DNA of 64,000 nucleotides from Marivita sp. S6314 (GTDB lineage: Bacteria > Pseudomonadota > Alphaproteobacteria > Rhodobacterales > Rhodobacteraceae). The stretch spans positions 310,001 to 374,000 of the forward strand of contig NZ_JALKAO010000004.1 of the NCBI RefSeq assembly GCF_023015985.1, given 5' to 3'. Position 1 is the stretch's first letter; each line of letters opens with the position of its first letter. This document shows positions 59,907-64,000 of the stretch, piece after piece. A program made the position numbers and the translations under genes. The notes under the pieces were generated by a model. It was not told where the DNA came from. It saw only the letters and a program-made list of their open reading frames with translations, and searched no databases.

Positions 59907-61358
59907 ATGTCTTTCACCCTTGCCATCGTCGGTCGCCCCAATGTGGGCAAGTCGACATTGTTCAATCGTTTGGTCGGCAAACGCCTTGCCCTGGTCGATG
60001 ACCAGCCGGGCGTGACGCGCGATCTGCGCGAAGGGGCGGCGCGTCTGGGGGATCTGCGGTTCACCGTCATCGACACCGCCGGTCTGGAAGAGGCCACCGA
60101 TGAAAGCCTGCCGGGCCGGATGCGCAAACTCACCGAACGCGCGGTGGACATGGCCGATATCTGCCTGTTCCTGATCGACGGGCGTGTCGGCGTAACGCCA
60201 TCCGATGAAATGCTGGCCGAAATCCTGCGAAAGCGGTCAAAACACGTGATCCTGGGCGTCAACAAGGCCGAAGGCAGTGCCGCAGATGGCGGTGTGATCG
60301 ACGCCTATGGGCTTGGTCTTGGCGAACCGCTGCGCCTGTCGGCAGAACACGGCGAAGGCCTGCCGGACCTTTATGCCATGCTGCAACCGCTGGCCGATGA
60401 GTTCGACAAACGCGCTTTGCTGGACGCGCCTGAGACCGAGGTGGATGTCGGCGAAGATGATCCGGACGCCCCCCGCGCCATCACCAAAGCCCGGCCATTG
60501 CAAATCGCCGTGGTGGGCCGCCCGAACGCGGGCAAGTCCACGCTGATCAACCAGATCCTTGGCGAAGACCGCCTGCTGACCGGACCCGAGGCGGGAATCA
60601 CCCGCGACGCCATTTCGGTACAAACCGAATGGGGCGGCACCCATATGCGCATCTTTGACACCGCAGGCATGCGCAAAAAGGCCAAGGTGCAGGAAAAGCT
60701 GGAAAAGCTGTCTGTCTCCGACGGCGTGCGCGCGGTGAAATTCGCCGAAGTGGTCGTTGTCCTGCTTGATGCCGCCATCCCGTTTGAATCCCAGGACCTG
60801 CGCATCGCCGATCTGGCCGAACGCGAAGGCCGTGCGGTCGTCATTGCAGTAAACAAATGGGACATGGAAGACGACAAGCAGGACAAGCTGAAAATGCTGA
60901 AAGAGGAGTTCGAACGCCTCTTGCCACAGTTGCGCGGCGCGCCCCTGATCACGGTGTCTGCCAAAACCGGTCGCGGGCTGGATCGCCTGCAAGCAGCCAT
61001 CCTCAAAGCGCATGACATCTGGAACCGCCGCGTCACCACGGCGCAACTCAACCGCTGGCTGGCGGGGATGCTCGAACAGCACCCGCCACCCGCGCCACAG
61101 GGCAAGCGGATCAAGCTGCGCTACATGACGCAGGCGAAAACCCGGCCACCGGGGTTCGTGGTCATGTGCTCGCATCCCGACAAGATGCCCGACAGTTACA
61201 AGCGCTACCTGGTGAACGGGCTGCGGCAGGATTTCGACATGCCCGGCACGCCGATTCGACTGACGCTGCGCGGGCAGGGGGACAAGAACCCCTATAAGGG
61301 CCGCCGCGAAAAGAACGCCGGAGCCTTGCGCAAACACCTGGGCAAGAACCGGGGGTAA
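59907..61358 (+). CDS. der: Ribosome-associated GTPase Der (EngA)
   Basis: Essential double-GTPase for 50S ribosome maturation. The 483-residue protein has two G domains: [18 protein letters not shown] with DTAGLEE and NKAEGS (variant of NKxD), and [18 protein letters not shown] with [12 protein letters not shown] and NKWD. A C-terminal KH-like domain follows ([20 protein letters not shown]). NKAEGS in the first domain has Glu where Asp is usual. Ends at a hairpin shared with a convergent gene. Confidence 0.95.
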
Positions 61359-61376
61359 GGGGTTTGCAAACCCTTA
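61356..61376. terminator. Hairpin at der 3' end
   Basis: TAAGGGGTTTG and CAAACCCTTA form a near-perfect stem (one unpaired G) starting in the der stop codon. It sits between der and the convergent deacylase gene. No T-tract follows. Confidence 0.45.
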
Positions 61377-61412
61377 GCCGCGCGCTTTGCTGTAGGTTAT
61401 ACCGCTGTTGCG

Positions 61413-62456
61413 TCAGATGATCTCGTCTTCGTCAAACAGCGGGGCCTCTTCCAACTGCAGCGCCAGGTCATCCACCGCAGCTTCGGCCACATCCGCAGAT
61501 TTCACCGCCGCAACGTGAAAAAGCGCGTCGCCTTCATGCACGATGGGCATCACCGCCCGGCCCACGATAATCCCGCCGTTGCGGGCCAGCACGTCGATTT
61601 CCCCGTCTCCAAACGGATCCGAGATGGCGGCAACGGTGTCGCCTTCATGGATCACGTCGCCTTCGCTTTTGTACATGCGCAGCAACCCACCGGCAGGCGC
61701 GCGCAGCCAACTGCTGTTTGCACATAACAGCGGCTGGGCCTTCGGCTTGGCAATGCCGGCCCGGGGCAGCATCCCGATCTCTTTAAGCACCCGCAGACAC
61801 CCGGCCAGTCCTGCGCGCACCGACATCTCGTCAAAGCGCATGCCCTCACCGGCTTCGTACAAAAGAACATCGACGCCCATTTTCTTGGCTTCCTGCCGCA
61901 GGCTGCCGTCGCGCAATGCGCTGGTCAGAATCACCGGTGCTCCGAAAACATGGGCCAGCTTCATGGTGTTGGCATTGTTTGCCGACACGCGGATCTGGGG
62001 CAGGTTGATGCGGTTGATCGCGGCCGAGTGCAGATCAATGCCCAGCGAACAGCGCGTCACGATTTCGGTCAGAAAGATATGTGCAAGCCGCGAACCCAGC
62101 GACCCGTTCGGCGAGCCGGGAAAACACCGGTTCAGATCGCGGCGATCGGGCAGGTATCGCGAATGGCTCAGAAACCCGAACGTGTTGACGATGGGCACCA
62201 CGATCAACGTCCCGCGCAGCGATTTCAATGCCTTGGCCCGCAGCAACCGGCGCACGATTTCAACCCCGATCACCTCGTCGCCGTGAATCCCCGCGCTGAC
62301 AAAGGTCACCGGGCCGTCACGACTGCCGTGGATGACATGCGCCGACAGCGTGACCGGCGTGTGATCGGACAGGGTGCTGACAGGAATATGTACGGTTTGC
62401 CGGGTGCCTGCGGCAATGCCGACATCGGCAATTTCGAAATCGGGCCGTTTCGTCAT
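61413..62456 (-). CDS. Succinylglutamate desuccinylase/aspartoacylase-family zinc hydrolase
   Basis: A 347-residue M14-like zinc deacylase. The ATG at 62456 overlaps the rimK-type stop by 4 bp; the longer frame upstream is not supported. Zinc-site motifs: [18 protein letters not shown] (His, Glu) and [11 protein letters not shown] (His). [20 protein letters not shown] and [17 protein letters not shown] fit the family. The C-terminal part has a lipoyl-like beta segment ([20 protein letters not shown]). It is not an arginine succinyltransferase-pathway gene by context; linkage to a RimK-type ligase suggests it edits or trims acyl/amino-acid adducts. Confidence 0.85.
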
Positions 62457-63358
62457 CCTTTGCCCTTGGTCTTCGTCGCGTTGGGTTTTGCGTGCTTCTC
62501 CATATAGGCAATGACCTTGCCCGCGATATCGAGGCCCGTGGCCTTCTCGACGCCCTCCAATCCGGGGGACGAGTTGACCTCCATCACCACCGGTCCGTGA
62601 TTGGCCCGCAGCATGTCGACACCGCACACGTTCAGCCCCATCGCCTTGGCAGCGCGCACAGCGGTTGACCGTTCTTCCGGCGACAGTTTGATCACTTCGG
62701 CGGATCCTCCCCGATGCAGGTTCGACCGGAAATCCCCCTGTGCGCCGGTTCGCATCATGGACGCCACCACCCGACCCCCAACCACAATCGCGCGAATGTC
62801 GGTGCCGCCAGCTTCCTTGATAAACTCCTGTAGCAGGATGTTCACACCCGCACCGCGAAACGCCTCGACCACGGACTTGGCCGACCGTTTGGTATCTGCC
62901 AGAACCACGCCGATGCCCTGGGTGCCTTCCAGCAACTTGATGACCACAGGCGCGCCACCCGCCAATTCAAGCACCTCTTCGGTCTGTTTGGGATCATGCG
63001 CAAATGTCGTGACCGGCAGGCCGATCCCGTCGCGCGCCAGCAATTGCATCGACCGCAATTTGTCGCGCGACCGGCCAATCGCCACGCTTTCGTTCAACGG
63101 AAACACGCCCTGCATTTCGAACTGCCGCAGCACCGCCATGCCATAGAACGTGATCGACGCGCCGATCCTTGGAATAACCGCATCATATCCGACCAGCTTT
63201 TCACCGTTGTAATACACCTCCGGCCGTCGCGACGCGATGTTCATGTAGCAGCGCAGCGTGTTGATGATGTCCAACGTGTGGCCACGCTCTTCTGCCGCTT
63301 CTTTCAGCCGCTTATGCGTATAAAGATTCGGATTGCGGGCAAGCATGGCAATTTTCAT
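62453..63358 (-). CDS. rimK: RimK-type ATP-grasp ligase
   Basis: ATP-dependent carboxylate-amine ligase; in E. coli RimK adds glutamates to ribosomal protein S6. The 301-residue protein has [20 protein letters not shown] at the start, [20 protein letters not shown], the ATP-grasp region ([20 protein letters not shown]), [20 protein letters not shown], and the metal-site [19 protein letters not shown]. Length fits RimK. It overlaps its neighbours by 4 bp on both sides (RimB-like before, deacylase after). Whether S6 is the target is inference. Confidence 0.9.
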
Positions 63359-63831
63359 GGCGTTGGTCCTTCAAACTGGGGTTTTTCGCTCACGAGATAC
63401 GAGCGACCTGGGTCGACCAAGATGTTCTTTTTGCGCAACGCCCGGCGGCCCAGGATAAGGGGAAACCGCATCGTGCCCCGGTCGGTCAGCGAGATGTCGA
63501 TGGTCCAGCGCCGTCCGGCAAGCACCATCGGGGTCCGGATGACGATCCGCGTCTCGGGCGATCCGCTGGTGTTGGTGATCGCCCGTTGGGTCACCACCGG
63601 GAAAGAGCACATGCGCTGCGGCGATCCCGGAACATCGGGACAGCGAAACCGCACCCAATCCGCGTCATCCTTGCGAAAGGTCTCGATATCGTCGGCATGC
63701 AGCGCGGTGGTTTTGGCGCCGGTGTCGATCTTCACCGCAAAGTCCTTCAGATGAAGTTTTGGCAGGCTGATACACTCATGCCAACCGATCACCATCGGGC
63801 GATCTGCCGAATATCTTGTGGTGCTGGTCAT
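63355..63831 (-). CDS. RimB-like retropepsin-fold protease
   Basis: A 158-residue protein of the ATP-dependent zinc protease-like family (PF05618), related to RimB of Pseudomonas. The retropepsin motif is [17 protein letters not shown] (Asp36-Thr37-Gly38), followed by [11 protein letters not shown] and [20 protein letters not shown], which form the flap and second strand. ATG at 63831 gives the family length; the frame continues upstream without support. First gene of a three-gene overlapping operon with rimK and the deacylase. Confidence 0.82.
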
Positions 63832-63970
63832 GAAACGGTCTTTTCCTCCAAATGCCCGACCCACATTGCGCCATCGCGCGGGCGGACACCACCGCTGTCT
63901 TGAGCAAAGACATGTGCAGGCGTCCACGCGGCCCGAAACGCCCGATTTGAAATGGAGGCTGGGAACCCGC

Positions 63971-64000
63971 ATGCATTTTGCCTATCGTGAACCAAAGGCG
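63971..64000 (+). CDS. Possible start of a plus-strand gene (3' partial)
   Basis: ATG at 63971 with GGAGG at 63954-63958 (12-base spacing) opens a frame reading MHFAYREPKA to the window edge. It is divergent from the RimB-like gene. Ten codons are too few to name it, and it may not be real. Confidence 0.3.
   Translation, partial: MHFAYREPKA

Follow-up and report, generated by a model that had tools for sequence, protein, structure and literature searches.

A widespread arrangement of a RimB-like protease, a RimK ligase and an AstE/AspA-like hydrolase in Pseudomonadota

Background

RimK and RimB have so far been studied as a ribosome-modifying pair. In a 64,000-nucleotide stretch of the genome of Marivita sp. 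S6314 (class Alphaproteobacteria, family Rhodobacteraceae; contig NZ_JALKAO010000004.1, positions 310,001 to 374,000, hereafter the window), a rimB-like gene and a rimK gene are followed by a third gene, which encodes a zinc hydrolase of the AstE/AspA type. In this report, we examine the three genes, their distribution among Pseudomonadota and the features of their products. In the genomes sampled, the hydrolase is always accompanied by RimK; since RimB is unable to cleave chains of fewer than about five glutamates (PMC11957791), the hydrolase offers a specific candidate for the final step that has been missing after RimB. The trio appears to be a widespread arrangement with a third enzyme that is seemingly unstudied.

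An operon of three overlapping genes

All three genes are read from the minus strand. The rimB-like gene (63355..63831) encodes a retropepsin-type aspartic protease of 158 amino acids with a DTG motif at residues 36-38, rimK (62453..63358) an ATP-grasp alpha-L-glutamate ligase of 301 amino acids, and the last gene (61413..62456) the zinc hydrolase, of 347 amino acids. Read from the sequence, the rimB/rimK junction (63355..63358) and the rimK/hydrolase junction (62453..62456) are both ATGA overlaps of 4 bp. A first-pass annotation of this DNA had described three overlapping genes with 4 bp at every junction, and its coordinates and both overlaps are borne out. Because the flanking genes on both sides run on the opposite strand, the trio is, by arrangement, a probable self-contained transcription unit. 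A promoter and terminator scan of positions 61300-64000 gave no site on the operon strand; its yield, a single promoter-like site and two terminator-like ones, did not exceed that of shuffled sequences.

The protease matches PF05618 with 112.8 bits (cut-off 27), its catalytic DTG starting at residue 36, and its relatives in the PDB are 9g59, 9g58 and 2pma. RimB (NF052261) is the top of the four NCBIfam RimB/RloA models, at 115.8 bits, followed by RloA2 at 82.6; because the score stays under the RimB cut-off of 200, we use the name RimB-like. The ligase reaches 444.2 bits against the NCBIfam model for S6--L-glutamate ligase (NF007764, cut-off 331), with 149 bits for PF18030 and 225.5 bits for PF08443 in Pfam, and aligns end to end and ungapped with Pseudomonas RimK (7qyr). 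The residues that contact polyglutamate in P. aeruginosa RimK are given in PMC10092738 as S7, R8, S14, R64, S68, R189 and N262; five of the seven (R8, R64, S68, R189 and N262) are identical in the window's RimK, while S7 is replaced by alanine and S14 by threonine.

Co-occurrence of the hydrolase with RimK and RimB

The distribution of the three proteins was determined in a phylum sample of 348 Pseudomonadota genomes that are at least 90% complete. A model built from 12 orthologues served to delimit the hydrolase subfamily at E <=1e-60, further matches starting only at 1e-35 and weaker; RimK was called at E <=1e-40 and RimB by PF05618. Seven second copies of the hydrolase, with E values of 1e-70 to 1e-78 and all in genomes already counted, were left out. 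RimK is present in 151 genomes and the hydrolase in 90, every one of which carries RimK (90/90); 61 genomes have RimK without the hydrolase and 197 have neither (Fisher p ~1e-42 at the genome level). Counted by family label, up to 83, the highest label seen, the hydrolase occurs in 27 of the 36 RimK-bearing families and in none of the 47 others (p ~2e-14). RimB follows the same trend, as it was detected in 88/90 hydrolase genomes compared with 33/61 genomes having RimK without the hydrolase. As a control, nine genomes contain only weak matches (E 1e-20 to 1e-35), corresponding to other AstE-like proteins; RimK is present in two of them (G342 and G436), near the base rate as judged by eye.

A separate draw of 61 genomes from the window's own family gave the same picture: RimK was present in 21 genomes, RimB in the same 21, and the hydrolase in 12, all within those 21. 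The third member, whose novelty the first-pass annotation had implied, is thus a regular partner, present in 90/151 RimK-bearing genomes of the phylum sample. It is missing from all 16 RimK-bearing genomes of family f44, taken as Pseudomonas-like since several carry extra PF05618 copies, and from all 15 of family f49, taken as enterobacteria because they have RimK without RimB and an S6 ending in SEE, SD or DD. If these assignments are right, the third enzyme is absent from the organisms on which knowledge of RimK was built.

Linkage to rimK and its loss

The hydrolase gene lies directly behind rimK in 58 of the 90 phylum-sample genomes (60 loci, with gaps of 5-230 bp between the matched stretches) and elsewhere in the other 32. 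Of the 80 named loci, 43 show the hydrolase gene immediately after rimK, 35 have no rimK in the flank examined around the hydrolase, and two (L043 and L110) are too short to judge. RimB was also detected in 40 of the 43 linked loci, the other three being L040 and L075, which are at contig ends, and L061. These linkage counts place the arrangement beyond chance.

All 35 genomes with an unlinked named locus carry RimK elsewhere. It lies in 31 of them in reading frames of at least 467 amino acids, the length of RimB-RimK hybrids, stands alone in two (G066 and G072) and was recovered only as fragments in two (G062 and G071). In the same-family draw, the hydrolase gene is beside rimK in 6/8 genomes with separate rimB and rimK; it is present in 6/13 genomes with RimB-RimK hybrids, and away from the hybrid in all six. 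The nearest upstream open reading frames (ORFs) of the 35 unlinked loci fall into 22 groups (the ORFs were called mechanically and some are spurious), and the hydrolase gene therefore seems to have moved repeatedly. The hypothesis that the hydrolase is a mere passenger of the rimK operon is ruled out, since copies far from rimK occur in RimK genomes only (35/35 among the named loci and 32/32 in the phylum sample): the dependence of the hydrolase on RimK does not rest on operon inheritance. No general fourth partner besides rimB and rimK was seen by eye among the 25 largest ORF groups of the 80 named loci, many of which are antisense shadows.

The C terminus of ribosomal protein S6

Ribosomal protein S6 is the textbook target of RimK. 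We examined it in 80 hand-picked genomes of the phylum sample, comprising 36 with the hydrolase, 28 with RimK only and 16 without RimK; S6 was matched in 79 (none in G165). The ribosome as target of the trio, a reading to which the first-pass annotation came close in pointing to ribosome modification in Pseudomonas, is not supported for the window organism: its own S6 ends in KRDDRGDRRERRN (RGDRRERRN), a basic tail, and none of 19 S6 proteins from the same family, whatever their rim genes, has aspartate or glutamate as its last residue. Two genomes of one genus, G338 with RimK and G364 without, have identical S6 tails. In the window's class as a whole, S6 ends in an acidic residue in 3/13 genomes with the hydrolase, 2/9 with RimK only and 2/15 with neither, and the mean net charge of the last 15 residues is +2.08 (n=13), +1.89 (n=9) and +1.33 (n=15), respectively. 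There is thus no sign that S6 tails have adapted to RimK in this class, which makes S6 modification in the window's lineage unlikely.

Elsewhere, the tails of many genomes look like RimK substrates: S6 ends in aspartate or glutamate in 13/22 hydrolase genomes, 17/19 genomes with RimK only and 1/1 with neither. The contrast between 13/22 and 17/19 (p = 0.04) is weak and strongly affected by relatedness, and we draw no conclusion from it.

Fold and conserved residues of the hydrolase

The hydrolase passes the Pfam model AstE_AspA_cat (PF24827) with 134.2 bits (cut-off 25), and three more specific identities were rejected: DoeB (72.1 bits against the TIGR02994 cut-off of 402.7), succinylglutamate desuccinylase AstE (23 bits against the TIGR03242 cut-off of 305.65) and aspartoacylase (27.6 bits against the NF002601 cut-off of 180). 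An AlphaFold model (pLDDT 85.3, pTM 0.87) is closest among solved folds to 3cdx (Z 31.8) and DoeB (6twm, Z 31.2), then 3na6, 2qj8 and 3fmc; next comes CphZ (8eip, Z 25.0, 296 residues aligned, rmsd 3.3), a likeness of fold from which we claim no membership. M14 carboxypeptidases, including CCP5, follow with Z scores of 15-17, CCP5 reaching up to 15.9 over the catalytic domain; the CCP5 structures matched were crystallised with glutamate-peptide analogues. The first-pass annotation had called the protein a zinc deacylase with a lipoyl-like C-terminal part. Its assignment to a zinc-hydrolase family stands; a special lipoyl-like domain is not supported, because the model aligns over residues 9-320 with the solved relatives 3cdx and 6twm, making this part the ordinary second domain of the family. 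The biotin/lipoyl attachment protein 1z6h gives a weak match to residues 255-317 (E = 0.51).

An alignment of 55 relatives shows no variation at four residues, H58, E61, H143 and E201, which also align with their DoeB equivalents. H58 and E61 belong to the HGDE motif (residues 58-61, codons at 62274..62285, minus strand) and H143 to the DLHS motif (codon at 62028..62030, minus strand); we take H58, E61 and H143 to be the zinc ligands and E201 the catalytic glutamate, as in the family. Five arginines (R149, R156, R182, R187 and R207) that adjoin the catalytic motifs in sequence are likewise invariant in the 55 relatives, whereas DoeB (6twl) has L, A, S, D and S at these positions. Not all five are specific to the subfamily, since 3cdx also has an arginine at the position of at least R207.

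The protein ends in FDEDEII (residues 341-347, codons at 61416..61436, minus strand), a tail that is identical in 12/12 same-family orthologues collected by whole-protein search and whose residues 343-347 are predicted to be disordered (pLDDT <50). Among the 80 named loci, 56 tails read LFDEDEII and 20 MFDEDEII, with one each of LFYEDEII, LYDEDEII, IFDEDEII and LFDEDEIL, counts that are biased by the scan itself, FDEDEII being one of its two search patterns. In the phylum sample, DEDE followed by two hydrophobic residues ends 18 of the 30 best-scoring loci and does not end the other 12.

The nearest named relatives of the hydrolase are from Yoonia (86% identity) and Octadecabacter (84%), which places the organism among the marine Rhodobacterales. 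Locus L037, on a contig assigned to a metagenome bin of Flavobacteriia (JAHBAN010000204.1), encodes a protein 79% identical to that of the window; the contig is probably rhodobacteral and misbinned. Another AstE-like protein of the window's genome (G000:C11:495249-495974) shares 30% identity with the hydrolase, and G196, G215, G227, G165, G253, G262 and G424 each carry an additional, more divergent hydrolase copy besides the main one.

A possible role for the trio

The three products very probably work together. This part of the add-and-remove system proposed in the first-pass annotation is upheld, and its logic fits a ligase, a polyglutamate cutter and a member of an amide-bond hydrolase family; the ribosomal target in this organism and the implied novelty of the third member are not supported. 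We propose that the hydrolase works on alpha-glutamate chains made by RimK, in a three-enzyme cycle that does not go through S6, a proposal that we regard as evenly poised between right and wrong. By the chemistry known for its relatives, RimK would use ATP to link glutamates into poly-alpha-glutamate, as a free chain or attached to an acceptor, which in the window's lineage is probably something other than S6. The RimB-like protein, a homodimeric retropepsin if it resembles its relatives, would stimulate RimK and cut chains of about five or more glutamates. According to the experiments on Pseudomonas RimB described in PMC11957791, this protease raises poly-alpha-glutamate synthesis by RimK and cuts only runs of at least six contiguous glutamates, or of five where the run begins with the encoded terminal residue, so that short glutamate pieces remain uncut. 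The hydrolase would take glutamates off these short pieces, or off stubs, releasing free glutamate, much as CphZ finishes cyanophycin dipeptides, and its acidic tail could, at a guess, serve as a docking peptide. Such a finishing role is suggested by the family chemistry, the dependence on RimK and mostly on RimB, the extra arginines and the precedent of CphZ.

A broader and more tentative proposal, which we would place somewhat short of probable, is that the trio constitutes a poly-alpha-glutamate metabolism standing free of the ribosome, with RimK as synthase, the RimB-like protein as endo-cutter and activator, and the hydrolase as exo- or dipeptide hydrolase, held partly by its DEDE-type tail in the polyglutamate grooves of its partners. 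If true, the cycle would resemble that of cyanophycin, with glutamate as the sole building block, and would be common in marine Pseudomonadota, overlooked because the RimK model organisms are without the third enzyme.

Several points weigh against a polyglutamate-trimming hydrolase or temper the evidence for it. The relatedness of the genomes inflates the genome-level p-value. The hydrolase is unneeded for RimK function in general, as 61/151 RimK genomes, 33 of them with RimB, are without it, and two hydrolase genomes (G218 and G376) have no RimB match. The match to CCP5 says little, generic M14-type folds also reaching Z 15-17, and the five arginines are placed at the active site by their position in sequence beside the catalytic motifs, so that they may or may not line it. 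Outside the window's class, S6 is a possible target, since the tails of hydrolase genomes there are mostly acidic. A deacylase reaction is also possible, because DoeB, a deacetylase of N-acetyl-diaminobutyrate, is nearest in sequence among the characterised relatives.

This last point underlies the suggestion that the hydrolase is a true deacylase, which frees glutamate from an N-acyl-glutamate for use by RimK or uncaps a small molecule made by RimK. Its nearest characterised sequence relatives are indeed DoeB-type deacetylases, and in mammals N-acetylaspartylglutamate is synthesised by homologues of RimK and N-acetylaspartate is cleaved by aspartoacylase. We nevertheless consider it improbable, given scores far under the DoeB, AstE and aspartoacylase cut-offs, the extra arginines, which would better suit a polyanionic ligand, and the lack of a recurrent acyltransferase, by eye, in the 25 largest ORF groups of the 80 loci. 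The acyl tags also considered in the first-pass annotation are possible, though none of our findings suggests an acyl donor or transferase. The trio might instead write and erase glutamate tails on another protein with an acidic C terminus. The chemistry of RimK and RimB covers protein tails as well as free chains, and the authors of PMC11957791 raise targets other than S6 since some RpsF proteins do not end with glutamate. No candidate acceptor turned up, although no systematic search for acidic C termini was made, and as the main role of the trio this is unlikely, if slightly less so than deacylation.

S6 modification as in Pseudomonas, in which RimK would glutamylate the S6 C terminus, RimB would shorten long tails and the hydrolase would clear the remaining stubs, draws support from a ligase that passes the curated S6--L-glutamate ligase model and from acidic S6 ends in 30 of the 41 RimK-bearing genomes examined outside the window's class. 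Against it stand the basic end of the organism's own S6 and the absence of acidic ends in the 19 S6 proteins of its family, a tail charge that is positive in the window's class with the hydrolase, with RimK only or with neither, and the tails that G338 and G364 share despite their difference in RimK. A single D139K change, moreover, leaves P. fluorescens S6 non-modifiable in the experiments reported in PMC11957791. We therefore hold a role through S6 to be as doubtful as deacylation, and prefer RimK-made glutamate chains off S6 as the substrate of the hydrolase. As the S6 of the window's lineage has no acidic tail, a role of RimK apart from S6 is directly testable with these genes; what RimK does when it is not modifying S6 is a question that the authors of PMC11957791 leave open.

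Relation to known systems

An ATP-dependent glutamate ligase is paired with a metallohydrolase in tubulin polyglutamylation, where TTLL ligases are opposed by CCP carboxypeptidases. The ligase-metallohydrolase logic is that of the trio; the resemblance is at the level of fold only and common to many M14 carboxypeptidases, and to our knowledge the tubulin system has no counterpart of the bacterial RimB. A further precedent is cyanophycin metabolism. Its synthetase belongs to the ATP-grasp enzymes and is related to RimK, in agreement with a weak match in our scan of curated models. CphZ hydrolyses the dipeptide left after cyanophycinase has broken down cyanophycin (PMC12661447; PDB 8ein, 8eip). 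As proposed for the hydrolase of the trio, CphZ takes over where a polymer-cutting enzyme has finished, the polymer being the product of an ATP-grasp ligase, and the two share the AstE-like fold. The substrate of CphZ, however, is beta-Asp-Arg, and the sequence similarity is limited (34 bits over residues 220-300). DoeB/EutE (6twl, 6twm) is nearer in fold and keeps the equivalents of HGDE, H143 and E201, but is without the five invariant arginines and has another gene context.

The RimABK system of Pseudomonas (PMC11957791, PMC10092738, PMC4741518) encodes a RimB-type retropepsin and a RimK ligase together, as does the trio. It differs in the presence, in some species, of the phosphodiesterase RimA and in an S6 tail that is acidic rather than basic as in the window organism, and the passages of these papers that describe RimABK mention no AstE-like hydrolase. 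RimB and RimK activities are also joined in the RimBK hybrid proteins of Desulfotalea psychrophila and Rhodobacterales, as introduced in PMC11957791, and the hydrolase subfamily co-occurs with hybrid-length frames too. The window has separate rimB and rimK genes with the hydrolase in their operon, whereas with hybrids the hydrolase is elsewhere in 6/6 same-family cases. The Rlo operon of P. aeruginosa likewise combines a retropepsin with an ATP-grasp protein; in the description given in PMC12239564 it also encodes a secreted protease and an inactive-transglutaminase membrane protein, neither of which is in the window operon.

RimK, RimB, the rimB-rimK operon and the RimB-RimK hybrids are already published. 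Among the titles and abstract openings listed in searches of the open-licence literature, none describes the hydrolase with RimK and RimB. So common an arrangement must show in databases, and the rimK-hydrolase linkage may already be in print; the work of Iyer et al. from 2009 is said to cover RimK gene neighbourhoods with peptidases.

Additional observations

Downstream of the trio and facing it, a plus-strand gene at 59907-61358 encodes what we take, from its sequence, to be a Der/EngA-like GTPase. Just past the end of the window (G000:C34:373900-381000, locus L221), a coxG-like gene and a cluster of aerobic carbon-monoxide-dehydrogenase type, assigned by eye, run on the strand opposite to the trio. 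In five rhodobacteral loci (L083, L088, L094, L107 and L111) the unlinked hydrolase gene lies directly behind a trpE-like gene, again by eye. RimK and the hydrolase of G218, whose genome has no RimB match, are encoded behind magnesium-transporter-like genes (by eye; locus L222, G218:C5:705500-712000). Conversely, a PF05618 protein without a RimK match is present in 7/348 phylum-sample genomes (G162, G195, G293, G348, G357, G362 and G415), where it may reflect RloA-type or another use of the protease.

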